Virus record (IMG/VR): IMGVR_UViG_3300045954_000022
Coordinates: 1 to 50,148 of that record
Direction: 5' to 3' (one strand)
From: a virus
Length of the DNA: 50,148 nucleotides
Positions 10,876 through 50,148 of this stretch are shown here, one piece after another. Position 1 is the first letter of the stretch. Each line of letters begins with the position of its first letter. The notes under the pieces are model-generated. The model saw nothing but the letters and a program-made list of their open reading frames with translations. It was not told the origin of the DNA and searched no databases. Both the position numbers and the translations under genes were made by a program.

Positions 10876-10900
10876 GGCACTGGGTTGTCGAGGGGGTAAG

Positions 10901-10935: not shown

Positions 10936-11202
10936 TCAGGCGGTGTAGATCTCGCGGGCCTTCTCCATGCCGGCCCGGAAGCCAGCGGAGCGGGCGTCTA
11001 TCAGGGCCATGTGCTGGTTGAATTTGCAGTTGTTCATAGAGGCCTGGAGCAGCATCGACGCGAGCACGTTGTCGCTCACATCAAGCTCCAGCAGGTCACC
11101 GATCGAGCAGCCCTCGACCAGATCGCTGAGGGCCAGCAGCATCATGGAGCGTATGGTCAGGCCCTGGGTCTTGGTGTACAGGGGGAGAGCGGGGAGCGTC
11201 AC
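10936..11202 (-). CDS. Small unknown helical protein
   Basis: 88 residues from GTG at 11202, four bases after the motif ACACTCCACCCC-type leader (11206-11214). The body is helical (RSMMLLALSDLVEGCSIGDL, then NVLASMLLQASMNNCKFNQH) and ends with AGFRAGMEKAREIYTA. Internal ATGs (11145-11148) are alternative starts. No family recognised. Confidence 0.55.
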   Translation of the reverse strand: MTLPALPLYTKTQGLTIRSMMLLALSDLVEGCSIGDLLELDVSDNVLASMLLQASMNNCKFNQHMALIDARSAGFRAGMEKAREIYTA

Positions 11203-11230: not shown

Positions 11231-11270
11231 CTCCCTGATAGTAGCACGGTGTACGGCTGATATCAGGGAG
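11231..11270. repeat. Inverted repeat CTCCCTGATA / TATCAGGGAG with promoter-like box
   Basis: Perfect 10-base arms at 11231-11240 and 11261-11270 around 20 bases. On the minus strand a TACTAT box (11238-11243) lies in one arm, 35 bases upstream of the start at 11202. The 14 bases GATAGTAGCACGGT recur at 12471-12484 upstream of the DUF932 gene, supporting a promoter/operator reading. Confidence 0.6.
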
Positions 11271-11272
11271 TT

Positions 11273-11311
11273 GGGCGATTCTCAGTAAGGAGGCCTAGTT
11301 GAGAATCGCCC
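11273..11311 (-). repeat. Conserved hairpin element, copy 2
   Basis: GGGCGATTCTCA (11273-11284) and TGAGAATCGCCC (11300-11311), perfect 12-bp arms with a 15-base loop GTAAGGAGGCCTAGT. Confidence 0.85.
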
Positions 11312-11315
11312 AGGG

Positions 11316-11359
11316 GGCCTACCGCAACTCTCCAGTCAAGGGGAGAGTCGTGGTAGGCC
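11316..11359 (-). terminator. Long stem-loop after DUF932 gene
   Basis: GGCCTACC pairs with GGTAGGCC and ACTCTCC with GGAGAGT. One weak 3-base internal region gives an almost continuous 18-bp stem with an 8-base loop. It lies 6 bases past the stop at 11366, so it is probably a transcript end or 3' stabiliser; no T run follows. Confidence 0.6.
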
Positions 11360-14138: not shown

Positions 14139-14170
14139 GGGAACGATGGGGGGTGGAGTGTAAAGGGGTG

Positions 14171-14207
14171 GGCGATTCTCAGTAAGGGTGCCTAGTTGAG
14201 AATCGCC
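14171..14207 (-). repeat. Conserved hairpin element, copy 3
   Basis: GGCGATTCTCA (14171-14181) and TGAGAATCGCC (14197-14207), perfect 11-bp arms, 15-base loop GTAAGGGTGCCTAGT. It lies between the leftward genes ending at 14227 and starting at 14138. Confidence 0.85.
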
Positions 14208-14226
14208 TGGGGAATGGCGTGGGTCG

Positions 14227-29479: not shown

Positions 29480-29877
29480 TGGAGCCCCTCGCTCTGATCG
29501 GCATGCCCTTTCGCCTGGGGGCCGATCCTGAGCGGCATGGGGCCACCGATTGTGTGGGCCTGGCGCGGTTCGTGCTGGCGCACCAGGGCATCCCCTCACC
29601 ACAACCCACCCGGAGTTGGTATCGGCGACTGCGGCGTGGCGATGAAGGCCTGTTCTGGGAGGTTCTCGACCTCTGGGGCCGCCCAACAGCACGGCCTACA
29701 CTGGGCGTGGTGGCGTTGTGCGGCACCGCCTCGGATCTTGGATTGGCGGTCTGGTGGATGAACGGCTGGATGCACTACGGGGAGGACCGAACGGTGCGGT
29801 GGACCCCTGCCGACTCCCTCCAACCCATCGGGCTCTACTGCCCACGGAAGTCCAGCTCTGCGATGCCGTCGGGCTGA
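29479..29877 (+). CDS. NlpC/P60-like tail tip peptidase
   Basis: 132 residues. GMPFRLGADPERHGATDCVG then LARFVL matches the catalytic Cys segment of NlpC/P60 enzymes (Cys29, in DCVGLARF). A His follows in NGWMHYGED (H99 approximately). The phage counterpart of lambda gpK cleaves peptidoglycan or processes tail tip. The last 160 bases overlap the N-terminal frame of the hub gene. Confidence 0.7.
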   Translation: MEPLALIGMPFRLGADPERHGATDCVGLARFVLAHQGIPSPQPTRSWYRRLRRGDEGLFWEVLDLWGRPTARPTLGVVALCGTASDLGLAVWWMNGWMHYGEDRTVRWTPADSLQPIGLYCPRKSSSAMPSG

Positions 29878-32800
29878 CCCCCGAGGAGTTCTTCTACTTT
29901 GAGGCCCTGCGTGAGGCGTGGACACCCACCCGGCCGCCGGAGTATGAGCTGGTGCCCGATGTGCAGGGCAATCCGGTTGCGCTGATCATCAACCTGGTGG
30001 TCGGCGTGGCCCTCTCGGCCGTGTCCGCCCTGATCGCACCCAAGCCCCGTGGAGGCGGCCAGGCCAAGGCGCCGCCGCAGCTCCGCACGGCCGACATCAA
30101 CCAGACCACCCGGTTCGCCTCGACCCAGGGGTTCTCCGGGGTGCAGGAGCTGGCCAAGCTGGGCGAGACGGTGCCGCTGGTGTTCACTCACCGCGACCAC
30201 ATTCCGGGCCTGGGCGGTGTGCGGGTGGACAGCAAGCTGGTCTGGAGCCAGATGCTCAGCCAGGGCACCGGGCAGCAGCTCCGGGTGATGGCCGTGTTCG
30301 GGGTGGCACGTATCCCCACAGACCACCGACCGGCCTACGCCGGCTTCGCAATCGGGGACAGCACCCTCAAGAACTACACCCGCGCCAAGATCGCGCTCTA
30401 CTTCCGCGAGAACGGCGGGCGCATCAGTGAATGGGGGCCTGAGCGGTATCTGGAGGGGACGCTCCAGCGGTATCCGGGGCCTGACCCCTTTGCGGTGTTC
30501 GATGACCGCACCAACGTCGATCAGCCCTGGCACTGCGGCACCCGCACCCCAGCTACCCAGACGCAGTTCGGCTGCTACTCGGCTATGCCGAACGGCAGCG
30601 TCTACAAGGTGAACTACGAACTGATTGTGGTGCCCCGCCCGCGCAAGGACGAGGAGGACGACTGGGACTGGGACGTCACTGACGACGCTGATACAAAGCA
30701 GGACAAGGTCTATCGGGGCAAGTTCTCGCACTACGCCGCCATCAAGCGGGCCGCAGGGGAGAGCGGCAACGGCAATCGTGTGACGGTGCGCCCTGGCGAC
30801 ATCGTGGAATATCAGATTCAAGGCGATACGGAGCGAGGCAGTCTGTATAAGCCGTGGGGCGTCGAGGATGTGAACGCCAGCACGATCGACCGGCGCATCT
30901 CGGCAGATGAAGCGATCAAGGTCGGCGACATCTACATGGCCGGTGAAGCCCTGGTGGTGTGTGAGAGGACCGACGATGGCCCGTGGGAGCGGGGGCGCAC
31001 GAAGACGTTCTCGTTCCGTTGCCTGGAAGAGGGCGAAGTTCGTGTGTACGACCCATCGGCACAGCACGACAAGCCGGAGAGCTATTGCTTGCAGCGTGTC
31101 GCCATCGCCACGGTGGCTAACAACCGCGAGTGCGACATCACCGAAATCGGCATCAAGTCCACTGTCTGGCGGCAGATCAACGGGTTCTCCAACGTCAACA
31201 GCCACCCCGGCGGAGATGTGGTCTATAACTACGGCCGGGAGAAGGGTTCAATCACGCTGGGGTCGGTCAACCGCTACCACAAGAGGCTGTCATTCTTTCG
31301 CCTGCAGTATCGGCCCCTTGGGCGTAATACAGATGCAGACATGTGGATCGACATCACGCCCGATGTGTTCTTCATCAAGGGGAACGCGCCAGTCCCCCAA
31401 TACAACTTCCTGCGCGTCACTCACCCGAGAGGCCAGTACGAGTTCCGCTTGAAGCCGATCTCCGGTGGGTGGGTATACCACAAGATGCTCGGCGCCAGGG
31501 CCTACATGCTCCGTGCAGGCAGCCGCCGCCGTTCGGTGGTTCGTAATGGTCTGCTCGTCTCTTTTGAGGCTGAACAAGTAACGCTCAACGGTGAGATGGT
31601 CAGCAATCGCGACTGGCTCATCGGGCGTGAAGCAGACCTGGACAACGACAACCTGCGCGAGAACGATGCGATATGCGACTACAAGGTTTACGACGCAGAA
31701 CGTACCAGCGCCCAGGAAGAGCCTGAGCATGAGATTGTACACATCAACGAGATAGTTGCAGGTTCAGCGGCTCAGTTCGATGACCTGCTTCTGTGCGGGC
31801 TGCGCATAAACAGCACGGTCGAATTCAACCAGTTTGAGCAGCTCAGCGCCTGGTTCTCGCACGGCATGATGTGCGAGCGGCTGATCCGCGACTCGCGTAC
31901 TCCCCTGGCCCCTGGGGTGTTGTGGTCCACCAACAACCTGGCGGAGATCACCTACAACATGCTGGTGAATGCCACCTGGGGTGCAGGCCGTCTGGTGGGG
32001 CCGTTGGCAGTCAGCCGCAGCCGGTTCACAGTGGCCGCCCAGTTCACCGAGGCCAACCGCTTCACCTGGGACGGGATTGTCGATGAGAAGGTAAACCTTC
32101 GCGACTGGATCTTCACGCAGGCCGGCTATAACCTGCTCGATTTCACGATTCTCGGCGGGCAGTTCAGCCTGTACCCCGCCGTCCCATTCAATTCGGACTT
32201 CACAATCGATTTCGGGTGGCGCGTCCAGGAGAAGGCGCTGTTCACCGACGGGAACATCCGCAACCTGAAGGTCACCTGGCTCAGTCCCGAGGAGCGCCAA
32301 CTGTTCCGTGGCGTGTGCCTGTGGCGGCAGGAATTCCCTGACGGATTCGCACAGATTCGGTCGCTATCTGTGCGCCTGTCCGATGCTCAGGGCGGGCGCG
32401 ATGACGACCCAGAAGAGTTGTTCGACATGAGCAACTTCTGCACCAGTCGTGAGCACCCCTTCACCTTCATTCGCTACGCCCTGCGGGTGCGGCAGTTGGT
32501 GGATCACATGGTGGAGTTCGAGACGACGCCCCACGGTTCTCTCGGGCTGGTGCCGGGTGACACCTTCCGGTTGATCTCCTCGGTGGTCCATACCAGCCGG
32601 CTCAACAACGGTTCGATCGACAGCAGCGGCACGATCACCAGCACCACCGATTTCGCGGATGGCACCTACCAGATCCTGTTCTGGGTCAGGGGCACCGTCG
32701 GTGTGCAGGAGGGGGACATGACTGTGCGCGGCGGTGTTGCGCTGGAGGAACAACTACGCGGAACCGTCTTCGCCCTTCGCCAGACATCCGCTACGAGCCG

Positions 32801-32939
32801 CTTCTACAAGGTGGAACGTCAGGACCGCACCAGGGAAGGGTTCGTCCGCATCCTGGCCACCGTGCTGCCGGTGGATTCTGAAGGCCGCCTCGCTACTCTG
32901 CAGTGGCCGGATGATGCGTTCGTGGTGGAGGCCAACTGA
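29799..32939 (+). CDS. Central tail hub / host specificity protein (gpJ-like)
   Basis: About 1046 residues; in-frame GTG starts at 29718 and 29799 make the N-terminus uncertain. LTPEEFFYFEALREAW and a hydrophobic segment VALIINLVVGVALSAVSALI precede TRFASTQGFSGVQELAKLGE and VPLVFTHRD, the pattern of TipJ/hub proteins. Later: ITYNMLVNATWGAG, NLRDWIFTQAGYNLLDF and VTWLSPEERQLFRGVC. The trimeric hub closes the tail and carries receptor functions. Fibre genes follow. Confidence 0.8.
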   Translation: MDPCRLPPTHRALLPTEVQLCDAVGLTPEEFFYFEALREAWTPTRPPEYELVPDVQGNPVALIINLVVGVALSAVSALIAPKPRGGGQAKAPPQLRTADINQTTRFASTQGFSGVQELAKLGETVPLVFTHRDHIPGLGGVRVDSKLVWSQMLSQGTGQQLRVMAVFGVARIPTDHRPAYAGFAIGDSTLKNYTRAKIALYFRENGGRISEWGPERYLEGTLQRYPGPDPFAVFDDRTNVDQPWHCGTRTPATQTQFGCYSAMPNGSVYKVNYELIVVPRPRKDEEDDWDWDVTDDADTKQDKVYRGKFSHYAAIKRAAGESGNGNRVTVRPGDIVEYQIQGDTERGSLYKPWGVEDVNASTIDRRISADEAIKVGDIYMAGEALVVCERTDDGPWERGRTKTFSFRCLEEGEVRVYDPSAQHDKPESYCLQRVAIATVANNRECDITEIGIKSTVWRQINGFSNVNSHPGGDVVYNYGREKGSITLGSVNRYHKRLSFFRLQYRPLGRNTDADMWIDITPDVFFIKGNAPVPQYNFLRVTHPRGQYEFRLKPISGGWVYHKMLGARAYMLRAGSRRRSVVRNGLLVSFEAEQVTLNGEMVSNRDWLIGREADLDNDNLRENDAICDYKVYDAERTSAQEEPEHEIVHINEIVAGSAAQFDDLLLCGLRINSTVEFNQFEQLSAWFSHGMMCERLIRDSRTPLAPGVLWSTNNLAEITYNMLVNATWGAGRLVGPLAVSRSRFTVAAQFTEANRFTWDGIVDEKVNLRDWIFTQAGYNLLDFTILGGQFSLYPAVPFNSDFTIDFGWRVQEKALFTDGNIRNLKVTWLSPEERQLFRGVCLWRQEFPDGFAQIRSLSVRLSDAQGGRDDDPEELFDMSNFCTSREHPFTFIRYALRVRQLVDHMVEFETTPHGSLGLVPGDTFRLISSVVHTSRLNNGSIDSSGTITSTTDFADGTYQILFWVRGTVGVQEGDMTVRGGVALEEQLRGTVFALRQTSATSRFYKVERQDRTREGFVRILATVLPVDSEGRLATLQWPDDAFVVEAN

Positions 32940-33352: not shown

Positions 33353-33753
33353 CGGAGCAGAAGTTCTATAGCGGCAAGGACGGCTGGGTACGCGAGAACG
33401 GCCAGCCGGTGGCACGTGTGCGGGAGTGGCGGTTCAGCTCAAGCGTGGCGGCCCTGCCGATCACCAGCCTGGCGGACTTCGCCGAGGACTACACCGCTGG
33501 CATCAGCTCAGCAGCGGGCAGCATGGTGATCTGGTACTACGCAGATGCCCCCTCATCGATTATCAAGCGAGTGGTACGTACCACGCAAGTTGACGACACC
33601 GCTCGGGTGGCCCTGGAGCTGGGCTGGGGGCCCAACCGGATCCTGGGCACAGCCTTGTTTACGGAGGTGCGCCTCGGCCCCAGCGTGGGTGAGGTGATGT
33701 CGGCCGACTGCCAGTTCGTCTTCTGTGGTCCGCTGAGGGAACTCACGTTGTGA
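33349..33753 (+). CDS. Minor tail protein
   Basis: 134 residues, GKDGWVRENGQPVARVREWR then a beta-rich body (DTARVALELGWGPNRILGTA, FTEVRLGPSVGEV). The start FYSGKDGWVRENGQPVARVREW resembles tail-tube-like beta sandwich domains. Overlaps its neighbours by 4 bases at both ends. Confidence 0.5.
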   Translation: MTEQKFYSGKDGWVRENGQPVARVREWRFSSSVAALPITSLADFAEDYTAGISSAAGSMVIWYYADAPSSIIKRVVRTTQVDDTARVALELGWGPNRILGTALFTEVRLGPSVGEVMSADCQFVFCGPLRELTL

Positions 33754-34787
33754 CGGTCTACTTCGGCGATTCAGGGCATATCGAGCTGAAGCGGGCCTCG
33801 ATCGACACTGTGTTCGCCAGTGTGGTAGACCCCTCTGATGTGAATTCCAGTAGGGCACGGTTCAGCTTCGATTTTCCATCGGAGATGCTGCTGACCGGCG
33901 ACATGCTGGAGATCCGCGCCGATCCCGGCTACAAGCTGGATTTCATCCCGCCTGATGCGTGGATCAGCGGCGAGGTGGAGCCTGACGGCATCTGGTATGT
34001 CAATGTCGATCAGGTCGGTGGCATCCGGCTCTACGACCGGTTCGATGACGCGGTGAACGGTGAGTACGCCGGCCGGGTGGCTCTGGTGGATATCACCGAG
34101 TCCATCCCGATCCAGGTGAAGGTGCGGGACGCTATCCCCCGTTGCGTCGGGCAGATCACCGGCTACGAGATCAGCACCGATCGGGACGCGGTGGATGTGT
34201 CGAGCCTGTCCGATGAGTTCCGCGAGAACTTCAGCGGGATGATCAGCGGCTCTGGCGAGATGCAGGCCAACTTCGACTACCGGCTGGGCATGTGCGACCC
34301 GGCCTATGAGGAGGACATCGACGGCTGGGAGCCCGAAGTGCCCCTATACATGCACCAGCTCCTGATGCGGCAGCAACTGGGCAGCGGCTTTGAGGCCCGG
34401 TTCATGGTGTTGCACCGGGGGCGCGGCTACGACGAGAACGACGAGGTGTGGCTGGAGGCCAAGGGCATCCTCACCAACGCGGCCATCCGGGTAGGCCCCA
34501 CCGAGATCATCCAGTCCTCCTTCCGCTTCGTGCTGACCGGGCCGGCGGCGTGGCGCGTCCGCTCCACCACCCAGTACCTGCTGCAGGAGAGCCGTGATCT
34601 ACTTGCCCTGGAACGTCGCCAGGGTCGCGGCTATCTGGAGCAGGAGCACGACGCTCCACCGCATGAGCCCCCAGGCCAAATGGAGCTGCTCGATCTGGTC
34701 ACCGAGACTGGGGCCTCGCTCGTCACCCACGACGGGGCCATCGTGCAGGCGCGGACCATAATGGGCGGAACCAGGAGCGCCGCCTGA
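33750..34787 (+). CDS. Tail protein with tube-like domains
   Basis: 345 residues. Two beta-rich halves: SSRARFSFDFPSEMLLTGDM, then VDITESIPIQVKVRDAIPRC, then GYEISTDRDAVDVSSLSDEF, a tube-type strand pattern. A helical tail near the C-terminus (QESRDLLALERRQGRGYLEQ) could connect to fibres. Precise role unknown. Confidence 0.5.
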   Translation: MTVYFGDSGHIELKRASIDTVFASVVDPSDVNSSRARFSFDFPSEMLLTGDMLEIRADPGYKLDFIPPDAWISGEVEPDGIWYVNVDQVGGIRLYDRFDDAVNGEYAGRVALVDITESIPIQVKVRDAIPRCVGQITGYEISTDRDAVDVSSLSDEFRENFSGMISGSGEMQANFDYRLGMCDPAYEEDIDGWEPEVPLYMHQLLMRQQLGSGFEARFMVLHRGRGYDENDEVWLEAKGILTNAAIRVGPTEIIQSSFRFVLTGPAAWRVRSTTQYLLQESRDLLALERRQGRGYLEQEHDAPPHEPPGQMELLDLVTETGASLVTHDGAIVQARTIMGGTRSAA

Positions 34788-37180
34788 TGGACCTACGGAT
34801 CAGTGAACTGCCGCCGCTTCTTGGCAGCGATCTGCAGACCATCGACGTGGTTGCAGTTGCCGACATCTCGGCCAGTGAGACGCGAAAACTCACCTCCAAG
34901 GATCTGATCCAGTACGGCGTCGTCCTGATTGACGACGAGACGATCCCCAGCTCCAAGCTGCAGGACGTACAGCACGGCGACCTTGCGCCAGTGGGCGCCG
35001 CTGGACTGTTCCTGGCGGGGCCGTTCGATTCCGGCGGGCGGATCAGTGGTCGCCGCATCGTCCCCACCGATCTGCCCCCGGCCACCACCGAGGCGATCGG
35101 GGCGGTGAGCATCAGCGCCGGCCTGGCTGTGGATGGGAGTGGGTCGTTACGAGTGCGGCCGGCCACCACCACGGCCATCGGCGGCGTGATCATCAACCCG
35201 CTGGGCGGCCTGGAGACAACCGCCGACGGGACGATCCAGCACGTCGGCAACGGCATCCCCACCGGCACCCGATCGGGCATCACCTACGACGAGTGGGGCC
35301 ACATCACCGGGGCCGTGGCGCTGGTGGGGGCCGATCTGCCTGCGGCGACCACCACGGTGATCGGCGCAGTGTCGGTGCCAGGCAGCTCCGGGCTCACGGT
35401 GAGCCCCCTGGGCGTCCTGGGCCATGCCGCCAACATCACCGCCGGCACCCGCAGCGGCATCACGGTGAACGCCACCGGCCACGTCACGGCCATTGATCCG
35501 CTGGCCGGCACCGATCTGCCGATCGCCACCACCAGCACCGTCGGTGCGGTGAAGGTGCCATCCGACGGGCCGCTGACGGTGGACGGGAGCGGGTCGCTGC
35601 GGCACACCTCCACGACGGCCACCACGGGCACCTTCACCAAGGTGACGGTGGACGGGTTTGGTCACGTCACGGTGGGACGTTCCCTGGAGGCGGCCGACAT
35701 CCCCGACCTCGATGCCAGCAAGATCACCACCGGCATCCTGAACCCGGCCCTGCTGGCGGGGCTGCAGATCACGGCGGCCAACCTCTACGACTACTCGATC
35801 GCCTTCATCCAGGAGGCTGAGCCCTCCGCGCCCGACTTCATCGGCCACCTGTGGCTGCAGGAGTCCAGCTCGCAGTTGCGGATGTGGAACGGCAACAGCT
35901 GGATGCCCTGCGGCTTCGGCGCCGTGATGGCCAACAACATCCGCTTCGGTGGCACGTTCAACGCCGCCACGGGTGCCATCGTCAACGTGACGCCGCTCGG
36001 GCGGGAGTCCTCCTTCGCCGCCGGCCAGGCCATCCCGCCGCCCTCCTCGCTGAACGCGGGGATCTACTTCGTCGCTGTGGTGGCTGGCACCGGGGTGGGG
36101 CAGACACCGGGCACCACCTACGACGTGGGCGACTGGATCCTGTCGCTCGACCCGCAGCAGTCCTGGACCCGCGTGGACATGGCGGGGCCTGGCGGGGGCG
36201 GCGGATCCACGAACCTCGACGGCCTCACCGATGTGGCCGTGGTGAACCCCACCGCCGGCCAGGTGTTGGTCTACGACACGCAATCGGCGAGCTGGCGGAA
36301 CGGCACAGCCACCGGCATCCAGCACCTGAGCTTCACCCAGCAGGGCCAGAACCCGACACCAGGCAACGGCGCCGGCCAACTGCCGACGGGCGCCATCGCC
36401 ATCAACCTGAACGCCAACCAGCCGTTCCTGGCGATCCAGGACACGGCCGGCGCCATCCGGCGATTCGGCGTGGCGGTGGGCACCACGGCGCCGAACTCCC
36501 CCAGGGCCGGCGAGCTGTGGCTGGATACCAGCGCCGGGGCGGTGCTGCGCTGCTTCACCGGGTCAGCCTGGAGCACGGGCGGGGCCGTCGACACGGGGGG
36601 TTTCCCCGCCGGCACCCGGATGCTGTTCGTGCAGTCCGACGCTCCACCGGGCTGGGTGCGGGACACCGCCCACAACAACAAGGCGCTCCGCATCGTCAGC
36701 GGCACCGCAGGCTCGGGTGGGTCGTTGGGATTCACCACGGCGTTTGCCGGCCGCACGGTCAGCGGCTCCACCGGGGCCACTACCCTCACCGCTTCGCAGA
36801 TCCCCTCGCACAGCCACACGGTCAACGACCCAGGGCACGGCCATGGCGTCAGTGATCCGGGCCACAGCCACGGCATCGCCGACCCCGGCCATGCCCACAA
36901 CTACACGAAGATCGATGGCGAATACGGCCAGACTCCGACCAGCGGTACGAACCAGGCGGCTCATGTGCGTCGACTGATCGAGAACTGGATCTGGAACGAG
37001 CACCGCTACACCGGCATCAGCGTCAACGGCGCAGGCACCAACATCTCGATCCAGGGCTCCGGCACCGGTATCTCGCTCGGGTCGAGCGGTGGCGGCCAAG
37101 GCCACACGCACAGCATGGCCGACGCCTCGCTCGACATGGCCGTGGCTTACGTTGATGCCATCATCGCGGTGAAGCAGTGA
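34787..37180 (+). CDS. Tail fibre protein with HxH-rich C-terminus
   Basis: 797 residues. The N-terminal part (MDLRISELPPLLGSDLQTID) resembles fibre attachment domains. It is followed by Gly/Thr/Val-rich repeats (PPATTEAIGAVSISAGLAVD-type, three or more), NLDGLTDVAVVNPTAGQVLV, and a C-terminus with FPAGTRMLFVQSDAPPGWVR, QIPSHSHTV and repeated HGHG/HSHG/HAHN. These His pairs are the iron-binding signature of fibre tips in other phages. Receptor binding is the expected role. Strongly GC-rich. Confidence 0.75.
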   Translation: MDLRISELPPLLGSDLQTIDVVAVADISASETRKLTSKDLIQYGVVLIDDETIPSSKLQDVQHGDLAPVGAAGLFLAGPFDSGGRISGRRIVPTDLPPATTEAIGAVSISAGLAVDGSGSLRVRPATTTAIGGVIINPLGGLETTADGTIQHVGNGIPTGTRSGITYDEWGHITGAVALVGADLPAATTTVIGAVSVPGSSGLTVSPLGVLGHAANITAGTRSGITVNATGHVTAIDPLAGTDLPIATTSTVGAVKVPSDGPLTVDGSGSLRHTSTTATTGTFTKVTVDGFGHVTVGRSLEAADIPDLDASKITTGILNPALLAGLQITAANLYDYSIAFIQEAEPSAPDFIGHLWLQESSSQLRMWNGNSWMPCGFGAVMANNIRFGGTFNAATGAIVNVTPLGRESSFAAGQAIPPPSSLNAGIYFVAVVAGTGVGQTPGTTYDVGDWILSLDPQQSWTRVDMAGPGGGGGSTNLDGLTDVAVVNPTAGQVLVYDTQSASWRNGTATGIQHLSFTQQGQNPTPGNGAGQLPTGAIAINLNANQPFLAIQDTAGAIRRFGVAVGTTAPNSPRAGELWLDTSAGAVLRCFTGSAWSTGGAVDTGGFPAGTRMLFVQSDAPPGWVRDTAHNNKALRIVSGTAGSGGSLGFTTAFAGRTVSGSTGATTLTASQIPSHSHTVNDPGHGHGVSDPGHSHGIADPGHAHNYTKIDGEYGQTPTSGTNQAAHVRRLIENWIWNEHRYTGISVNGAGTNISIQGSGTGISLGSSGGGQGHTHSMADASLDMAVAYVDAIIAVKQ

Positions 37181-37494: not shown

Positions 37495-37740
37495 ATGCCG
37501 AAGCACCATCACTTCACCCCCGAACGCCTCCTGGCCTTGGACTGGGAAGTTGCGGCTGATCTGCATGTCGAGTACAGCCCCACAACGGGAAGCCGCATTG
37601 ATCGCATCACGCCGGGGGAGAGGGCAGATCTGAACGGCTACCACCAGGCAGTTTTCCCAATCGGCAAGGACGAAGTCGGTTATGTCTTGATCCCCGACAC
37701 CGCGCTGGCGATGCTGCGAGCCCTGCCGCCTGACGCCTGA
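37495..37740 (+). CDS. Small unknown protein
   Basis: 81 residues, ATG at 37495 soon after the previous stop and a stop overlapping the next start. MPKHHHFTPERLLALDWEVA and PGERADLNGYHQAVFPIGKD. Could be a fibre assembly factor. No motif recognised. Confidence 0.5.
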   Translation: MPKHHHFTPERLLALDWEVAADLHVEYSPTTGSRIDRITPGERADLNGYHQAVFPIGKDEVGYVLIPDTALAMLRALPPDA

Positions 37741-39185
37741 TGCTCAACAACCGGACCCGCCGGGACGTCATTTTCAACCGGGTTCCCACCAAGGCGGACC
37801 TGGATGCAGGTGACCTGGTGGTGAACGCCGGGGACGGCACGGCCTACACGAAGCTCGTCACCGGCCAGGTGGTGCCGATCGCCGGCCGCTCGATCAGCGG
37901 AGATTCGAGTGGGTCGTCCTTCGAGCTGCCGATCGCCACCGACACGGTGCTCGGCGGCATCAAGGTGGGCGCCAACCTCTCGATCACGGCGGAGGGTGTG
38001 TTGTCGGCGCAGCAGGGCCAGGACGGCTTCGTGCTTCCCCCGGCCACACGTTCCACCCTGGGCGGCGTGATCGTCGGCGCCAGGCTGACGGTGGGTCCGG
38101 ATGGCACCCTGTCGGCGGACGCTCCGGCCCTGCCGATCGCATCGAACACCGTGCTCGGCGGGGTGCGGGTTGGTTCGGGCTTGACCATCGACGGCAGTGG
38201 GCTGCTGTCCGCGAATGCCCAGGGCTACACCCTGCCGCCGGCCACCAATGTCACGCTCGGCGGCATCAAGGTGGGCACCAACCTGACGGTGACGGCAGAC
38301 GGCACCTTGAATGCTGGGCCGTCGGGCTCTGATCGTGTGCTGCGGGCCGGGGACACAATGACCGGCACACTCAACATCGCCAACGCCAACCTGGCAGTAG
38401 TCAATGGCAGAGTGAGTGTCACGGGTACCATGGAACCCGATGTGGTTGTCGGACCCCCTGCCACGCCGACATTTGGATCTTTCTACTACTATGCCAATAC
38501 GGTTGGTGTGCAGAGTAGGGGAACGCTTCACCTGGCCACATCAGCAAACACAAGCGTTGTTATCGCGCCAGATTGGAACGAGATCTACCGATTCAGCCCC
38601 AGCGACGTGTGGTTTGAGAGGAACCTCGTCATACAGAAGGACACCACAGGTACTGCGTTGTTCATCCTGGCGGATCAGGCTGGCATCGCGAACATCGACT
38701 TCTATCAGCGCGATTTCAACCGCCAATGGGGCGCAGTTGGTAGTGCTCTGGGCAGAACCGATCTATGGGGCCGTCAACAGGCGTGGCTTCGCGCTGGCGT
38801 CGAGGATGGCTGGGGCCATGCCGAAATCAACGGGGGGTGGCGAGAATGGGAAGCTATCCGCTTCTCTAGAGGCGGACAGTGGCTGGGATCAATCGACGGT
38901 AATGGCAACTACATCAACAAGGTGTCACGTGTAGAGGCATTGCCTGCGCCTGTAGCAGGGTTAGACGTTGTGCTACAGCTTCACCCGGTAGTACTTGCCT
39001 CAGGGGCTGCAGATGACGTGGAGCGTCCCCCGTCCCTGGGCTTCCTTCCTACTGAACTTCGCCGCGCCGTTCCAGAGGCCGTGAGTGAAGATGAGTCGGG
39101 CTACTGCGCGACCGCGCTGATCCCCGTCCTGGTGAAAGCGATCCAGGAGTTGACGGCCAGGGTCGCCGCTCTGGAGGCCGCTTAG
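37740..39185 (+). CDS. Tail fibre with repeats and chaperone-like C-terminus
   Basis: 481 residues. Four or more copies of a 30-45 residue unit (LPPATRSTLGGVIVGARLTV; LPIASNTVLGGVRVGSGLTI; LPPATNVTLGGIKVGTNLTV). A unique segment with mixed codons (from about 38400) follows. The end, SGYCATALIPVLVKAIQELT then ARVAALEAA, resembles the helical tail of intramolecular chaperone (peptidase S74-like) domains, but the catalytic Ser/Lys dyad is not obvious. Base composition falls at the start of the unique segment. Confidence 0.7.
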   Translation: MLNNRTRRDVIFNRVPTKADLDAGDLVVNAGDGTAYTKLVTGQVVPIAGRSISGDSSGSSFELPIATDTVLGGIKVGANLSITAEGVLSAQQGQDGFVLPPATRSTLGGVIVGARLTVGPDGTLSADAPALPIASNTVLGGVRVGSGLTIDGSGLLSANAQGYTLPPATNVTLGGIKVGTNLTVTADGTLNAGPSGSDRVLRAGDTMTGTLNIANANLAVVNGRVSVTGTMEPDVVVGPPATPTFGSFYYYANTVGVQSRGTLHLATSANTSVVIAPDWNEIYRFSPSDVWFERNLVIQKDTTGTALFILADQAGIANIDFYQRDFNRQWGAVGSALGRTDLWGRQQAWLRAGVEDGWGHAEINGGWREWEAIRFSRGGQWLGSIDGNGNYINKVSRVEALPAPVAGLDVVLQLHPVVLASGAADDVERPPSLGFLPTELRRAVPEAVSEDESGYCATALIPVLVKAIQELTARVAALEAA

Positions 39186-39211: not shown

Positions 39212-40903
39212 GTGGCCACGACCCGCGTCACCGATCTGCAGGCGCTGACCACGCCGGATGGAGCAGATGTCCTTCACGCGGTCGATGTCTCGGCGGATCG
39301 AGATTCCAAGCTCACCATCACTGGTCTGCAGGCCGCGATCGGTGGAGCGTTCGCCCCGGCTGTGCACCAGCACAACGCCAACGAGATCATCAACTTCAAC
39401 GCCAGCTCCAGGGCGCAGACCGAGGCGGCGCTGATTGCTGGGGCCAACATCACTCTGACGCCGGCAGGCACTGGCGCGACCCGGACCATCACTGTGGCCA
39501 GTACGGCGGCGGGCGGCGGGGGAGGCACGGTCACCCAGGTGGATGGCGGGGCGGGCCTGACGGGGTCGGTCACCACCAGCGGCAGCCTCGCGGTGGGCGC
39601 GGGCAGTGGTATCACCGTGGCGGCGGACTCCGTCTCGATCAACCGCACCACCACCGACACCTGGTATGCCAGCGCCGCGCAGGGTGCCTTGGCGGCCACC
39701 GCCCTGCAGCCTGGCCAGGCGGCCACAACGGCCCAGGGTGCCAAGGCCGACACCGCCTTGCAGCCCGGCAGCGTCGACCTGGGCTACACCGCCGCCACCA
39801 GGACGATCACCAACACGGCCGGCGACCCTGCTGTGCTGCCGCTGGTCACCTCGGGCGCTGCGGGCCTGGCGCCGCAGTCTGGCGGTGGAACGTCGAACTT
39901 CCTGCGGGCTGACGGCACCTGGGCGGCTCCCCCGGCCGGCGGTGGCGGGGCGACCAATCTCGACGGGTTGAGCGACGTCACGATCACGACGCCGGCCACC
40001 GATCAGGTACTGAAGTTCAACGGCACCGAGTGGGTGAACGCTGCGGCACCTGGCGGGGGCGGGGGCACCGTCACCCAGGTCACCGGTGGCGCCGGCCTCA
40101 CCGGATCGGTGACCACCACAGGGGCCCTGGCGGTGGGGGCCGGCACCGGCATCACAGTGAATCCGGATGACGTGGCGATCAATCGCACCACGGTCGATGG
40201 GTGGTATCTGCCGCGGGCGAACCACACCGGCACCCAGGGGGTCAGCACGATCCAATTCGCCAACTCGGCCCGCCTGCTCGGCTGCCCCGCTTCAGCCGGC
40301 CCTGGCCAGGAAGTGACCGTGGTGGCGCCACTGTTCTTCAACGCCGGCGCACTGAACGTGAACCCAGCGAGTGGGGCGTTTTCCGGCTCGATGAGCAGTG
40401 CAGACTTCACCAAGCTGGCCGGCATCGCCACCGGGGCCACGGCGAACAGCACCGACGCGCAGCTGCGGGATCGCTCCACCCACACCGGCACCCAGGCCGG
40501 CAGCACCGTAACCGGGGCCTACACGGCGTCGGGCCTGACGATGTCCGGGGTGGGGCTGCTGGGACGTGCCGCCGTTGGGGGCGGTCCTGCGGTGGAGATC
40601 ACGATCGGCACGGGCCTGCTGCTCACCGGCACAACCCTCACCGCCACGGCGACCGGTGGTGGGGGCGCCACGGATCTGGATGGGTTGTCGGATGTCTCGA
40701 TCCTGAGCCCTGCCTCGGGGCAGATCATCGGGTTCAATGCCGGCTTCTGGCGCAACATGACCCCAGGCAATCTGTTCCTGGCGCAGTCGAACCCCACAGG
40801 AGTGACAGGGGCTGATGCCATCACGAACATGATCTCACTCACGCAGGCGGAATACGACGCCATCGCGACCAAGAACGCTTCCACCCTATACGTGATCGTC
40901 TGA
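39212..40903 (+). CDS. Tail fibre protein
   Basis: 563 residues from GTG at 39212. N-terminus MATTRVTDLQALTTPDGADV followed by Gly-rich linkers and two long repeats (GGTVTQVDGGAGLTGSVTTS and GGTVTQVTGGAGLTGSVTTT, then ATNLDGLSDV-type words). The same NLDGL-[ST]DV words occur in the fibre at 34787. Highly repetitive, GC-rich and probably trimeric beta structure. Confidence 0.7.
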   Translation: MATTRVTDLQALTTPDGADVLHAVDVSADRDSKLTITGLQAAIGGAFAPAVHQHNANEIINFNASSRAQTEAALIAGANITLTPAGTGATRTITVASTAAGGGGGTVTQVDGGAGLTGSVTTSGSLAVGAGSGITVAADSVSINRTTTDTWYASAAQGALAATALQPGQAATTAQGAKADTALQPGSVDLGYTAATRTITNTAGDPAVLPLVTSGAAGLAPQSGGGTSNFLRADGTWAAPPAGGGGATNLDGLSDVTITTPATDQVLKFNGTEWVNAAAPGGGGGTVTQVTGGAGLTGSVTTTGALAVGAGTGITVNPDDVAINRTTVDGWYLPRANHTGTQGVSTIQFANSARLLGCPASAGPGQEVTVVAPLFFNAGALNVNPASGAFSGSMSSADFTKLAGIATGATANSTDAQLRDRSTHTGTQAGSTVTGAYTASGLTMSGVGLLGRAAVGGGPAVEITIGTGLLLTGTTLTATATGGGGATDLDGLSDVSILSPASGQIIGFNAGFWRNMTPGNLFLAQSNPTGVTGADAITNMISLTQAEYDAIATKNASTLYVIV

Positions 40904-41712
40904 TGGCACTGAACCTCGGCAGCGGACCAGTCAGCGCCATCAGGTTGGGCGCGGCAACACCGTCGAAGGTGATGCTGGGGACGACCCAGGTGTGGCCGGT
41001 GGTGCCTGTGGGAGATCCGTGGACACCGGCAGAACTGCCGAATCTGGTGATGTTCAGCAGCTTCGACGATCTGGCGAATGTGGTGCTGGTGGATGGGCGT
41101 GTCTCCCAGGTTGCCGACGCCAGCGGCTTTCCGTTCACGCAGGGGAATGTAGCCAACCAACCTGCACTTACGCAGAACGGACTGGATAAGTTCGCGTCCG
41201 TGTTTAACACAAACTTCCTGGACTCATCTGTGCCGTTCCCCGGCGGGTCAGCACTCACTCCTTTCGCACTTTTCGGAAATAGCGATAGTGAGTGTATAGG
41301 TGCAAGAGTGGAGAATGTACTTCACGCACAGCTCGGTGGTTGGAACGCTGTGTGGCACTTTCCCGGCTCGAACCGGGTATTCCCTGGGATGCCTCAAGGA
41401 GCAATCACTGCAGCGGTTTTTCGTCTTCAGTTCGGCCAAGCAGTTAACCAGGTTCGGGTCTGGGGAACAACTCAGAACTCCAACTCAGGCGGCACGACTG
41501 GCCCTACCGGTACAGCTCCCGGCTGGTCGTACGGGAGACAGTTCTGGAACCCTGGAGCATCTCCCCTCAACCTGCGCTGCTTCGGAATTGTTAGCGGTGT
41601 GATGTCCGATGCCGACGCCGAACGGTTTGAGGGATGGGCTGCACATACTTTCGGGTATGCAGCCAACCTTCCGGCTAATCATCCCTACAAGACTGCACCA
41701 CCATTCCTATGA
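40903..41712 (+). CDS. Tail protein with LamG-like C-terminal motif
   Basis: 269 residues. N-terminus LNLGSGPVSAIRLGAATPSK then VMLGTTQVWPV, a short fibre attachment segment. The C-terminus ERFEGWAAHTFGYAANLPAN then HPYKTAPP is the hallmark tail of LamG/concanavalin-like lectin modules in phage and marine bacterial proteins. Base composition drops after about 41130, at the edge of the second domain. Carbohydrate recognition is likely. Confidence 0.6.
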   Translation: MALNLGSGPVSAIRLGAATPSKVMLGTTQVWPVVPVGDPWTPAELPNLVMFSSFDDLANVVLVDGRVSQVADASGFPFTQGNVANQPALTQNGLDKFASVFNTNFLDSSVPFPGGSALTPFALFGNSDSECIGARVENVLHAQLGGWNAVWHFPGSNRVFPGMPQGAITAAVFRLQFGQAVNQVRVWGTTQNSNSGGTTGPTGTAPGWSYGRQFWNPGASPLNLRCFGIVSGVMSDADAERFEGWAAHTFGYAANLPANHPYKTAPPFL

Positions 41713-42710
41713 ATTACCTGGCCCCAGAAGCTGACCCGGTTCACGCAACGGAAACCGAAATCTTCGGCAGCTTCCGCGAGAAGATGCGCGCCATCGACCC
41801 CGAGGCGGTGGACGATGAAACCGGCACCATCATCGGCCGGAATGCCCTCACCGGCGAACTGATGCCGAACGCCACGCGCGCCTCTGGGTACTACGGTGAT
41901 CCCTTGCCGGCGGTCCAGGGCTTCTTCCTGCCGGTGCCGGAGGATGAGGCCCTGCGGGTGGCTAACCCGGCCGCGCTTGGCGTGATCGAGACGGAGCACC
42001 TGAACCCCTGGCCGACGCTGCGGAGCAACACCGAAGGCGAGCCGGAAGTGGGTCCCCTGCCGGAGTGGGTGCAGCCCACCGGCGCCCATGACGCCTACCC
42101 GCTTGGCATGTGGGTGCAGCACAACGGCTACGACTTCGTCTCGCTGCTGGAAGCCAACGTGTGGGAGCCGACGCCGGAAAGCAACTTCTGGCGCATCAGC
42201 CCCGATCCCGGCCCGCTGCCCTGGCGGGCTCCCACCGGCGCGGCCGATGCCTACGCGATCGGTGACCGGGTCACCCATACCGTCGCAGGCCGCGAGACCG
42301 ATCTGTGGGAATCCAACATCGACGCCAACACCACCGAGCCCGGCACCGACGGCACCTTCGACCGCTGGTGGTCACCGATCCTCGATGCCGGCGGTGAGGT
42401 TTTGCCGTGGGTGCAGCCCATGCCTGGCACCGCGAACGCTCCCTACGAGATTGGCGCCAAGGTGAGCCATGAAGGGCAGGAGTGGGTGAACACCGTGCAG
42501 CTCAATGTCTGGGAACCCGGCGTATTCGGGTGGGACGTCGTATCGCCCCCAGCAGACCAGGCGGGCCAGGGGTTCGGCGCCACCGAGAAGCCTCTCACCA
42601 GGAAGCAGCAACTGGCCGCCAAGCGGAAGCGCAAGGGTGGCGCGTTCGTCGGTGACGACCCAGCTACGCCCGACACCAATGAGGCGTGGATCGACGGGAA
42701 GAAGCCTTGA
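41709..42710 (+). CDS. Carbohydrate-binding repeat protein (CBM5/12-like)
   Basis: 333 residues. Three tandem modules with shared words: WVQPTGAHDAYPLGMWVQHN, WRAPTGAADAYAIGDRVTHT and WVQPMPGTANAPYEIGAKVS. Each continues with a Trp/Asn/Trp-Glu-Pro end (NVWEPTP, NIDANTTEPG, NVWEPG). This is the pattern of chitin-binding type CBM5/12 repeats in tail proteins. The C-terminus is Lys-rich (RKQQLAAKRKRKGG). The stop overlaps a TTG that starts the protease gene. Confidence 0.6.
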   Translation: MNYLAPEADPVHATETEIFGSFREKMRAIDPEAVDDETGTIIGRNALTGELMPNATRASGYYGDPLPAVQGFFLPVPEDEALRVANPAALGVIETEHLNPWPTLRSNTEGEPEVGPLPEWVQPTGAHDAYPLGMWVQHNGYDFVSLLEANVWEPTPESNFWRISPDPGPLPWRAPTGAADAYAIGDRVTHTVAGRETDLWESNIDANTTEPGTDGTFDRWWSPILDAGGEVLPWVQPMPGTANAPYEIGAKVSHEGQEWVNTVQLNVWEPGVFGWDVVSPPADQAGQGFGATEKPLTRKQQLAAKRKRKGGAFVGDDPATPDTNEAWIDGKKP

Positions 42711-43285
42711 GTCTGGTCTTTCTAGATTTTGACGGCCATACCACGTACGGCGGCAATCCATTGCTACCTGCTGACTACCCACGCATCGAACCGGATCGCA
42801 TCATCGGCGGGTTGCAGCAGGTGTGGTGGCCGTTTGAGATTGATTTTGTGACCGGCATCGAGCAGCCGCACGATCACCGCATTGTGTTCACGGGCGAGGA
42901 TCTGTGGCTAGGCGGTAATTATGTGGCCGGCTATTCGCTGCTGAACATCTACGGCAAAACACCTGCCGAAGACGGTGGCGTGAGTACACTGCCATACGCC
43001 AGCTATGTTGGGTCACTGTCCAGCTGGGATGATCCCAACCCTGGCCTGGCCAAGACAGCAGCGCATGAGCTGGGCCATGCCGTTGGCATCAAGCACGGCG
43101 GTATTGCCGAGAGCTATGCGCCACTGAAACGCGATAGCACGAGCTGGCGGGTGGAGGATGTGTTGGCGATTTATGCGCGGCACCCTGAACTGCAGCCCAC
43201 GGCAGAGTTCACTGATGTAGTTGCTGCAGTACAAAGCAGGCCGTGGTACGCTGGACAGTCTATTATCATCACAAGTATCACATGA
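42707..43285 (+). CDS. Zinc metalloprotease (metzincin-like HExxHxxGxxH)
   Basis: 192 residues from TTG at 42707 (TTGA overlap with the previous stop; GTG at 42686 is the alternative). HELGHAVGIKH (residues 120-130) is a full metzincin zinc site; the Glu is E121. The N-terminal MSLVFLDFDGHTT-type start is shared with bacterial secreted metalloproteases. No obvious Met-turn follows, and no signal peptide is visible. Possible roles are virion-associated digestion of host surface protein or fibre processing. An unusual gene for this position; not known to me in phage tail operons. Confidence 0.65.
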   Translation: MSLVFLDFDGHTTYGGNPLLPADYPRIEPDRIIGGLQQVWWPFEIDFVTGIEQPHDHRIVFTGEDLWLGGNYVAGYSLLNIYGKTPAEDGGVSTLPYASYVGSLSSWDDPNPGLAKTAAHELGHAVGIKHGGIAESYAPLKRDSTSWRVEDVLAIYARHPELQPTAEFTDVVAAVQSRPWYAGQSIIITSIT

Positions 43286-43359
43286 TCTGGTTCATCTGGC
43301 TGGTGCTGATCGTGCTGATCGTCCTTTGGTGGAACGTTTGCCAGGAGTGGCGGCGCTGA
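43282..43359 (+). CDS. 25-residue single-TM peptide
   Basis: ATG at 43282 overlaps the protease stop (ATGA). The product MIWFIWLVLIVLIVLWW then NVCQEWRR is almost entirely one membrane helix with a charged C-terminus. Too short for usual gene calls. A related peptide is encoded at 46120. Context near the endolysin suggests a lysis accessory. No ribosome binding site is needed given coupling. Confidence 0.5.
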   Translation: MIWFIWLVLIVLIVLWWNVCQEWRR

Positions 43360-43541: not shown

Positions 43542-44186
43542 ATGGCACCCATCCAGCTCCGCGATGCCGCCAGGCACTTCCGGGATCTCCCCCACCAGTT
43601 GGCAGCCTTCGACTGGCTCCAGGAGCAGCTCACCAACCAGCAACTGGACGAGTTCGCCGTGCTGTTCCGGGCCGCCGGCAGTGGAGCTCTACCTGCTCCG
43701 CCTGCTGCGGGGGATGCGATCGGCCTGGCGCTGCCGCTGATCAAAGTATTCGAAGGAATCAAGCTTGAGAGCTATCCTGACCCACTGTCTGGGTGCGTTC
43801 CGTGGACTATCGGTTGGGGCACTACACAGTATCCCTGTGGAGGCATGGTCCGCCCAGGGGATCGGATTACCCGCGCACAAGCCGATGAGTACATGCGTTG
43901 GTGGGTAGAGCAGGACGAAATAGCACAGGCTCAGCGTATACCCACTTGGAGCAAGATGAGCGCAAATCAGCAAGCCGCAATATTAAGCTTCAGCTATAAT
44001 TTTGGCCGGTACTGGTATAATTCACACGGGTTCGCTACATTAACCAGGAATCTGCGTGACGAAGACTGGGCAGCCGTTCCTGAAACACTGCTTCTGTATA
44101 GAAATCCACACACACACGTAGAAGCAGGTTTGTTGCGTCGCAGGCAGGCCGAAGGCAGGCTGTTCAGCGGGCTCGAATGGGCCTGA
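43542..44186 (+). CDS. Endolysin, GH24 lysozyme with N-terminal cyanophage-type motif
   Basis: 214 residues. Catalytic part: LIKVFEGIKLESYPDP (E71, D80) and TIGWG (Thr89), the Glu-Asp-Thr layout of T4 lysozyme; then NFGRYWYNSHGF and a C-terminal RRRQAEGRLF helix. The first 45 residues (RHFRDLPHQLAAFDWLQEQL) are a separate small domain shared in pattern with the C39-like peptidase. Base composition drops at about 43740, exactly at the domain border. It hydrolyses peptidoglycan at lysis. Confidence 0.85.
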   Translation: MAPIQLRDAARHFRDLPHQLAAFDWLQEQLTNQQLDEFAVLFRAAGSGALPAPPAAGDAIGLALPLIKVFEGIKLESYPDPLSGCVPWTIGWGTTQYPCGGMVRPGDRITRAQADEYMRWWVEQDEIAQAQRIPTWSKMSANQQAAILSFSYNFGRYWYNSHGFATLTRNLRDEDWAAVPETLLLYRNPHTHVEAGLLRRRQAEGRLFSGLEWA

Positions 44187-44808
44187 TCGGCACGGACAGC
44201 ACCTTTTCGACAGGCCAGCCTCTTTTGATTCGACCTCGCAAGGTCATATGGTTTACGCCAAGTAGTTTTGCCCATTGCGATACGTTCAGGGTTTTCCCTT
44301 GATAGGTCAACCTGATACTGCTTGTCTTGTTGTCTGCTTGGCAGGCCTGTGTGTCCCAGATGCAGTTGTCAGGACAGTAGCCAAGATGAACATCTTTTCT
44401 TTCAATGGTATAACCAGCAGGACAGGGTCCCATGTCGGCTAGAAATACTTCAAAAGAATTGCGCCATCTATCGCATACGGTGATACCCCTTCCGCCGTAG
44501 TATTGATACCTGTTGTTTCTGGGGTTATAGCAGCGGGCTTTCATCTTCACCCACAGCTTGTACTCTCGGGTTTTAGACTGTCCATGCGTTGTGTTGCATG
44601 TTTTGGCTGCTGCGGCACTACGCTCTCTCGCTAGGCACCCGCAGCTTTGAGTAGCACCATTCAGTAGCGCCCGTTGCTGCACAACTCTGAATTTGCCGCA
44701 ATCGCAGACACATTGATACCTGGTCGGGTAGCCGAGATGTTTTGCCGCCATGAGCGCCACCAAGCGCCCAAAACGACGGCCCGATTGATCGGGTAATCTT
44801 GCTGGCAT
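44164..44808 (-). CDS. HNH-type homing endonuclease with zinc-finger N-terminus
   Basis: 214 residues, leftward, overlapping the endolysin 3' end by 23 bases. N-terminal Cys cluster QCVCDCGKFR and SCGCLARER. The central motif LWVKMKARCYNPRNNRYQYY then GGRGITVCDRWRNSFEVF is followed by GPCPAGYTIERKD and YCPDNCIWDT, the AP2/HNH free-standing homing endonuclease pattern. The C-terminus looks like a DNA-binding helix-turn-helix (VSQWAKLLGVNHMTLRGRIK). A selfish element next to the lysozyme gene. Confidence 0.75.
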   Translation of the reverse strand: MPARLPDQSGRRFGRLVALMAAKHLGYPTRYQCVCDCGKFRVVQQRALLNGATQSCGCLARERSAAAAKTCNTTHGQSKTREYKLWVKMKARCYNPRNNRYQYYGGRGITVCDRWRNSFEVFLADMGPCPAGYTIERKDVHLGYCPDNCIWDTQACQADNKTSSIRLTYQGKTLNVSQWAKLLGVNHMTLRGRIKRGWPVEKVLSVPIRPIRAR

Positions 44809-46312: not shown

Positions 46313-46864
46313 ATGAGCAACACTGTAGGACAGGAGCGCTGGCTGCCTGTTGTTGGGTTTGAGGGCTCGTACGAGGTGTCCGACCACGGGCGGGTACGGA
46401 GCCTGGATCGTGTGGTCAGGCGCTCTGATGGCGGAACAGAGCGGCGCAAAGGGCAGATGATGTTTCGCTGCGTTCATCACAGTGGTTACACCTTGACAAA
46501 ACTGCGGAAAGACGGAAAAGCGCGCCCTGTGTTTGTTCATGTCTTGGTGGCCGAGGCGTTCCTAGGCCCTAAACCCAGCCCCTCGCATCAGGTTGCCCAC
46601 CGGGACGGCTCACCAGATAACAACACGTTGGGCAATCTCCGGTGGGCGACACCGAAGGAAAACATCGGGGAAGACAGGGATGCCCACGGAAGAACAATGC
46701 GTGGAGCTTCTCACACCAAGACTCCGTTTACCGATGAAGACATCTACTCCATAAGGCAGCGACATGCTGCTGGAGAGTCACAAGCGAGCATAGCAAGGAG
46801 CTGCGGTGTATCTGCCCACTCTATTAGCTGCATCGTTCGGCGAAAGAGCTGGACCCATATCTAG
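46313..46864 (+). CDS. HNH homing endonuclease with NUMOD4 domain
   Basis: 183 residues from ATG at 46313, which has a strong AAGGAG ribosome-binding site, rare in this genome. NUMOD4 (WLPVVGFEGSYEVSDHGRVR), HNH_3 (HVLVAEAFLGPKPSPSHQVA, then HRDGSPDNNTLGNLRW) and a helix-turn-helix tail (IYSIRQRHAAGESQASIARS). A free-standing selfish endonuclease placed behind its own terminator/promoter; overlaps the end of the leftward peptidase gene by 4 bases. Confidence 0.8.
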   Translation: MSNTVGQERWLPVVGFEGSYEVSDHGRVRSLDRVVRRSDGGTERRKGQMMFRCVHHSGYTLTKLRKDGKARPVFVHVLVAEAFLGPKPSPSHQVAHRDGSPDNNTLGNLRWATPKENIGEDRDAHGRTMRGASHTKTPFTDEDIYSIRQRHAAGESQASIARSCGVSAHSISCIVRRKSWTHI

Positions 46865-47706
46865 GGACGAATGTCTACGGCCCATCCGTCGGAGGACGAA
46901 TACACAAGCCAGCGCCTATCCCAGTTCTGACGGGTGTACCTCACACTCTTGCCATTGGTGTCGGCTGTGTACCCACCATTAACCATGTCAGCTACCCCAA
47001 ACGGGTCGTTCTGAATCCAGTGAGTGTCGGTAAACCCAATCGTAATCGTCCAGTGCCCGCCGCCTGATGGCGAAGATACATGCGAGTGGTGCAGCCAACC
47101 AACTGGCGTGGGACGTCCTTCCTTGATCTGGTTCTCCAGCCACTGCACCGTACCGTTCTGGATGAAGTCGGCCTGTAGGCCCAGGTGCCGCAGCGTTGCT
47201 ACCTGTGCGCTGGCATCAGTGGTATCACCAAACTGCGCCCGCACTTTGTTGTACGCATCATCATTTTCGATCGCGCCCCAGTACATAGCTGCCATCGCGC
47301 AACTGGAGCTGAAGCACTCGCGGTGCCCTTGGCCACTACTGTTATCGAGCTGACTCTGAAATGGTACGGGCAGCGGGTTGATGTATGCAGGTGGCGGAGG
47401 CGGCGGTGGAGTGCTGCTGAACTCAGTGGCCCAGTTGCTGTCTTCACTGAGGATGGCGCGACCACCCTGCAGCGCCATGATTTCGTCGTATAAGATCCAG
47501 ACGCCTCGTGCTTGCTGCGGCTGATTGTTGTAATACCGGAACCGATCAGCAAACCGTTCTGCGGTCATCAGCGGCCCGTAGCCGCGTTCCGACGCCTCCG
47601 GTGGTGCCGCCCGTGGATCGAGGGCCTGCTGCAGGCGGGGGGTGGGACGTTCCACCGGCAGGTCGGCTTCAGGCCGGCGGGGGTCGATCGGGGCGCCTTC
47701 AGGCAT
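46861..47706 (-). CDS. C39-like cysteine peptidase with Pro-rich linker
   Basis: 281 residues. Catalytic region: VPFQSQLDNSSGQGHREC then FSSSCAMAAMYWG (C131 or C136), GGGHWTITIGF (H218) and QNDPFG (D234), as in peptidase C39-like proteins. N-terminally there is a Pro-rich stretch and a segment RFADRFRYYNNQPQQARG then VWILYDEI, similar to the endolysin N-terminus. Likely attacks host envelope peptides. Last gene of the long leftward chain. Confidence 0.7.
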   Translation of the reverse strand: MPEGAPIDPRRPEADLPVERPTPRLQQALDPRAAPPEASERGYGPLMTAERFADRFRYYNNQPQQARGVWILYDEIMALQGGRAILSEDSNWATEFSSTPPPPPPPAYINPLPVPFQSQLDNSSGQGHRECFSSSCAMAAMYWGAIENDDAYNKVRAQFGDTTDASAQVATLRHLGLQADFIQNGTVQWLENQIKEGRPTPVGWLHHSHVSSPSGGGHWTITIGFTDTHWIQNDPFGVADMVNGGYTADTNGKSVRYTRQNWDRRWLVYSSSDGWAVDIRP

Positions 47707-50026: not shown

Positions 50027-50148
50027 CGGTTCAGGTGATGGCGGGTGGTGGGGTGGCTGGCGACGTACTCAGCCCATTCGGCGAGGTCATCGTCATGTAA
50101 CTCGCAAGGCTCGATCTTGTAGGGGCAGGGCTGGGGTGGGTCGTCAAC
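50005..50148 (-). CDS. Small unknown protein, C-terminal part (enters from right edge)
   Basis: 47 residues beginning at the window edge with VDDPPQPCPYKIEPCE and ending LNRCLHLKK. It continues, in the same codon phase, the N-terminal piece at 1-128, giving a protein of about 67 residues. No function assigned. Confidence 0.65.
   Translation of the reverse strand, partial: VDDPPQPCPYKIEPCELHDDDLAEWAEYVASHPTTRHHLNRCLHLKK
50081..50148. repeat. Terminal imperfect direct repeat, right copy
   Basis: Matches 1-68 in 61 of 68 positions. Joining the copies keeps the small protein frame open and links two leftward gene chains into one operon. Confidence 0.85.

Follow-up and report, generated by a model that had tools for sequence, protein, structure and literature searches.

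The adamalysins, serralysins and matrixins (M12B, M10) share the zinc motif HExxHxxGxxH with the phage-encoded protein analysed here, but they have a Met-turn, unlike this protein, which is devoid of methionine beyond its start. Metzincins are defined by their Met-turn methionine, a residue that has been called invariant. Replacement of this methionine by L, A or I impaired the protease PrtC, and the variants M226H, M226S and M226N could not be isolated (PMC1266349), while the matrix metalloproteinase gelatinase A was only mildly affected by a change of Met to Leu or Ser (cited in PMC1266349). The ADAM-family pseudo-metzincins lose zinc ligands and usually keep the Met-turn (PMC11266112); the present protein is the reverse, with the ligands kept and no Met.

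The metzincin Mtz of Listeria, likened to our protein from its description, is likewise a phage metzincin encoded near lysis genes. This prophage-derived protein raises the sensitivity to phage lysis in a manner dependent on its catalytic activity, and in prophages its gene follows those for holin and lysin (PMC8235301). Mtz is secreted and paired with the TIMP-like lipoprotein Tim, whereas the protein described here has neither a secretion signal nor an identified TIMP-like partner, as the adjacent genes encode a CBM-like protein and, on the other side, the 25-aa ORF followed by a lysozyme. Another comparison is offered by SCRM01_042 of Synechococcus phage S-CRM01 (AEC52989.1, 'pre-peptidase C-terminal domain-containing protein'), which also has the FLDFDGHT segment, HExxH and a location in a phage late region, but differs in its 636 residues, its long C-terminal region, its IMG Met-turn and the position of its gene between gp21 and gp22. 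SCRM01_042 belongs to an unnamed family of bacterial metzincin-like proteins, termed here the "LDFDG" family. Its bacterial members have the same catalytic domain, the cyanobacterial ones being 34-37% identical to our protein over about 130 aa; compared to it, the bacterial proteins are much longer (about 475-1330 aa), with long N- and C-terminal regions and an IMG Met-turn.

The window, namely the whole stretch of DNA that was analysed, is a viral record of 50,148 bases, in which the following features are discussed:

29718-32939, upstream of the protease gene: tail tip gene, with relatives in Synechococcus phages S-CBS1, S-CBS3 and S-LBS1
34787-37180, 37740-39185 and 39212-40903, plus strand: tail collar/fibre genes, matching tail-fibre PHROGs and Pfam Phage_tail_C
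41709-42710, plus strand: appendage gene of 333 aa with repeated CBM5/12-like modules (CBM_5_12 weak; phrog_18593, E 2.6e-22)
42707-42710, plus strand: TTGA overlap of the protease start (TTG, 42707-42709) with the stop of the upstream gene (TGA, 42708-42710)
42707-43285, plus strand: metzincin-like gene, 192 aa, TTG start, intact ORF
42719-42742, plus strand: FLDFDGHT, the family signature and initial strand of the catalytic domain, which aligns with LDFDG proteins from both phages and bacteria
43064-43096, plus strand: HELGHAVGIKH zinc site, residues 120-130, with three His ligands, the catalytic Glu and the conserved Gly
43097-43282, plus strand: C-terminal 62 aa, the expected Met-turn region, without Met and of ambiguous alignment
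43282-43359, plus strand: 25-aa ORF MIWFIWLVLIVLIVLWWNVCQEWRR with one hydrophobic segment, in ATGA overlap with the protease gene
43542-44186, plus strand: lysozyme-type endolysin, 214 aa (PF00959, E 1e-20; endolysin phrog_28234, E 1.1e-37)
46861-47706, minus strand: C39-like cysteine peptidase, related to the phage 'endolysin' phrog_10051 (E 8e-69)

The codon-position composition of the protease ORF is coding-like, as in the neighbouring genes, and its other reading frames are rich in stops; an in-frame GTG at 42686 is a possible alternative start. Six HExxH motifs occur in the six frames of the window, of which only the one in this ORF extends to HExxHxxGxxH, the clan feature that includes the catalytic Glu. 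An earlier note on this DNA had pointed out this complete motif, the TTGA overlap with the upstream gene and the lack of a signal peptide, and all of these were borne out. The catalytic domain starts from residue 2, and no hydrophobic stretch or signal peptide was found in the 192 residues, the highest mean KD over 19 residues being 0.71. The missing signal is not in itself an argument for a virion or cytoplasmic role, since the cyanobacterial homologues are also without an obvious Sec signal.

Used alone as query, the protein stayed below the Pfam cut-off, gave motif-level matches in NCBIfam and PDB and none in PHROGs, and retrieved nothing from scans of viral and genome contigs, so that S-CRM01 was needed as a bridge to the LDFDG family. 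The tblastn match to SCRM01_042 in the phage collection is weak (E 0.01; 7e-9 pairwise), and spans residues 4-132 of the window protein at about 30% identity, including FLDFDGHT and the zinc site. SCRM01_042 led in turn to a family present in freshwater Synechococcus and Cyanobium, Planctomycetota, Actinomycetota and viral contigs, with the signature FLDFDGH ... PFxVxVTT ... HExGHxxGLxHDG ... IMG. The (F/Y)LDFDG strand of this family is found at residues 5-12, and its PF(N/D/E)(V/I)(N/D)VTT strand and the GG(V/T) that precedes the active helix are aligned with PFEIDFVT and DGGVS, respectively. The resemblance of the N-terminus to secreted bacterial metalloproteases, proposed in the earlier note, was traced to a segment that phage and bacterial LDFDG metalloproteases have in common.

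When the window protein was left out of the family profile, it still scored 28.9 bits, a value reached by none of 1000 shuffles that retained the zinc motif (mean 12.5, s.d. 2.0, maximum 25.9 bits). With an earlier profile, also built without the window protein, it ranked first of the 737 ORFs of the window (E 3.8e-7; the next at 0.27). The kinship with metzincin-type proteases proposed in the earlier note is supported. Among 299 genomes of one cyanobacterial order searched with the window protein, 16 matched with E values up to 0.01, the best at E 2.4e-7 with 37% identity over residues 3-136. The family profile itself matched adamalysin and alkaline protease structures with an E of about 1e-7. 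No dedicated Pfam or NCBIfam model was matched by the family, whose members weakly match Reprolysin_3/4/5 and serralysin. Judging from these comparisons, the 192-aa protein is a very divergent relative of the LDFDG family, the homology being shown for the first two thirds of the chain, up to and including the zinc site, but not for the last 62 residues.

Further inspection of the ORF revealed zero Met codons after the start, a fact independent of any alignment, which makes a Met-turn methionine impossible and turns the earlier remark that no Met-turn is obvious into a definite absence. Because this methionine, expected below the zinc, is absent, the protein is metzincin-like rather than a metzincin and falls outside the strict clan definition. 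In the 29 aligned relatives, HExxH is kept throughout with invariant His and Glu columns, and the Met-turn position is M in 28 (mostly IMG) and L in one, which points to selection for activity across the family as a whole. The L belongs to a homologue in a planctomycete MAG (Rhodopirellula, L097), in which ILG stands for IMG as a natural Met-to-Leu change.

The C-terminal 62 residues, which follow the third zinc His and with which the window protein ends, contain neither the WAPIMG Met-turn and QDD helix of the family nor the C-terminal extension of several members, a DYGSLGxY PPC-like end. The mean alignment score of this segment was equalled by 21 of 300 shuffles; any of YAPLK, STSW and the EDV helix may be matched with the WAPIMG/QDD region, and no placement is significant. 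Accordingly, two candidate explanations, YAPLK in place of WAPIM (Met to Lys) and an exact deletion of IMG (STSW followed by EDV), were set aside as alignment-dependent. A frameshift that hides the Met-turn was ruled out, as no IMG-like motif occurs in the other frames.

The structure of the protein was predicted by AlphaFold2 with 30 aligned sequences at low confidence (pLDDT 57, pTM 0.60), and a second run with another alignment was worse (pLDDT 42). The first model has the expected order of elements, namely the first strand, a helix, the second strand, the active-site helix and a later helix. The eight best PDB fold matches of this low-confidence model are all metzincins (E 0.05-0.95), and its top viral fold matches are mostly metalloproteases (E 0.02 or worse). 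These best structural matches are suggestive of a metzincin fold but do not prove it.

The protease gene sits at the junction of the tail and lysis genes, between fibre genes and lysozyme. Its placement in a 'tail operon' by the earlier note therefore describes half of the setting: fibre and CBM genes lie upstream, and the lysozyme lies downstream, 257 nt from the protease gene with the hydrophobic 25-aa ORF in between. This small ORF possibly encodes a holin-like or membrane peptide. The upstream gene, previously called a carbohydrate-binding tail gene, is of the appendage type and resembles a protein of the minor tail class in Arthrobacter phage BaileyBlu; its CBM_5_12 match is weak (E 0.009) and below the Pfam cut-off. 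A 269-aa gene between the fibre genes and this CBM-like gene has no family matches. The closest named phage by terminase is cyanophage S-2L (40%), and the host is plausibly, by inference, a freshwater cyanobacterium.

The earlier note was aware of no standard gene of this kind at such a position in phages; the search revealed, by contrast, that LDFDG metalloproteases recur in several phage lineages, in several cases beside tail or lysis genes. The family occurs in tailed phages: cyanophage S-CRM01 is an isolate with a known host, and about 14 further cases are phage contigs from metagenomes, on which the neighbours were assigned from mechanical ORFs and PHROGs matches. The S-CRM01 gene lies in the head cluster between gp21 (prohead protease) and gp22 (scaffold). 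In contig L113 the protease gene is 1.4 kb downstream of an amidase-type endolysin, and in L118 it has a head-decoration/fibre block and a C39-like endolysin upstream and a lysozyme 1.3 kb downstream, the window's C39-like peptidase (46861-47706) having a 38% identical homologue in the same contig. The gene directly follows the fibres in L116, in the order J, collar fibre, fibre, protease; it comes after minor tail genes in L117, precedes a 607-aa spike-like gene by one gene in L132, and adjoins a transaldolase in L115. Overall, the phage copies of cyanobacterial type are mostly beside fibre, tail or endolysin genes with no Sec signal seen, whereas those of Bacteroidota type, a host type inferred from lipoprotein-like starts, carry signal or lipoprotein peptides. 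Three contigs (L123, L124 and L125) encode near-identical lipoprotein-like metzincins with aspartate-rich repeats that resemble thrombospondin type 3 repeats.

The phage members are scattered over the family tree: S-CRM01 falls among cyanobacteria, L115-L118 stand together, L119 is near Actinomycetota, and L120-L129 group with L132. As other, unrelated phages thus have copies better preserved than that of the window, phages seem to have taken up the LDFDG protease several times. The branch of the window protein is far longer than any other, at over 4 changes per site, which makes its position unsure. None of the 24 terminase-related records examined, many of them fragments, contains the protease gene. 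As probes for relatives, the CBM-like gene found one distant locus without the protease, the lysozyme gene found only distant loci, none with the protease, the tail tip found short fragments, again without it, and the gene at 33750-34787 found no loci. The tape measure protein of Arthrobacter phage Shambre1 (L176, OP297545.1, gene 17) matched a cyanobacterial M10-type metzincin segment (E 8e-3) and is possibly a virion-borne metzincin of another kind.

As the most probable reading, though one that we still regard as somewhat doubtful, we tentatively propose that the 192-aa protein is an accessory late protease that aids lysis or envelope breach. A functional late gene would encode a strongly diverged LDFDG-family zinc metalloprotease, made late together with the tail and lysis proteins. 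The protease would build up in the cytosol and, upon membrane permeabilisation, reach the envelope or cell surface, where it may cut lipoproteins, cell-wall enzymes, or S-layer or sheath proteins, and this cleavage would assist the lysozyme and the release of virions. Another residue or a shortened loop might do the work of the missing methionine. This role is supported by the homology beyond the zinc motif, the complete zinc site, the conservation of HExxH and the Met-turn among the relatives, the adjoining lysozyme and hydrophobic ORF, the comparable surroundings of the gene in L113 and L118, and the precedent of Listeria Mtz; against it stand the absent Met, in view of the PrtC variants, the very long branch, and the secretion and TIMP-like partner of Mtz, and the L115 and S-CRM01 genes, beside a transaldolase and between head genes, argue against a universal link to lysis. 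The TTGA coupling to the CBM-like appendage gene, which itself follows a series of fibre genes, in addition to the positions in L116 and L132, would also suit a virion-associated protease packaged with the fibre/CBM appendage to cut a host surface protein at adsorption or entry. We consider this unlikely, as the protein has no fused fibre-attachment or trimerisation domain and the S-CRM01 homologue lies in the head cluster. With fibre genes nearby and the S-CRM01 homologue between prohead protease and scaffold, a cytosolic protease that matures fibres or further structural proteins of the phage itself might be considered as well, but its patchy occurrence, including its absence from the terminase-related records, and the extracellular look of the bacterial relatives make this highly improbable.

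Loss of activity has to be weighed too. The lack of Met, the C-terminal 62 residues that are not demonstrably alignable, the longest branch of the tree and the low-confidence fold might all reflect a degenerate relative, a pseudoprotease or decaying gene that has lost the turn below the zinc and serves at most as a binding protein. Yet the ORF is intact and coding-like, the three His, the Glu and the Gly are all kept, unlike in the ADAM pseudo-metzincins, and gelatinase A tolerates the loss of its methionine with mild effects, so that we consider degeneration quite unlikely. The homologues in freshwater Synechococcus and Cyanobium and the patchy distribution in phages would fit an accessory or host-takeover gene, whose product would cut proteins of the host or of competitors, or exploit released protein as a nutrient; its position within a late structural/lysis block and the lack of a recognised secretion signal render such a role very unlikely. 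Returning to an active protease, it is possible, if far from assured, that the window encodes a working Met-less protease of metzincin type, an outlier of a lysis- or tail-linked phage metzincin family acquired several times from bacteria.

A natural protein with a whole zinc site yet no Met would test the need for the Met-turn methionine. Moreover, tailed phages that are unrelated to each other repeatedly have, in their late gene blocks, a metalloprotease of one unnamed family, whose tested phage members match no PHROGs v4 family. This recurrence suggests that extracellular-type metzincins are linked to phage lysis or adsorption, a link that can be tested and on which we found one functional study, that of the Listeria locus of phage origin.

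Some further elements of the record were noted. Just after the lysozyme, ORF 44164-44808 on the minus strand appears by eye to be HNH-type homing endonuclease-like, and its product shares 42% identity with a similar one of L113, which likewise carries a metzincin-like gene. The record ends carry a 68-nt direct repeat (1-68 and 50081-50148, 90% identical), which is either a near-terminal redundancy or two repeat copies where the assembly broke. In addition, a 53-nt element with the internal inverted repeat GGCGATTCTCAGTAAG ... TTGAGAATCGCC occurs three times, at 10891-10943, 11265-11317 and 14162-14214, and possibly represents a family of regulatory sites or terminators.
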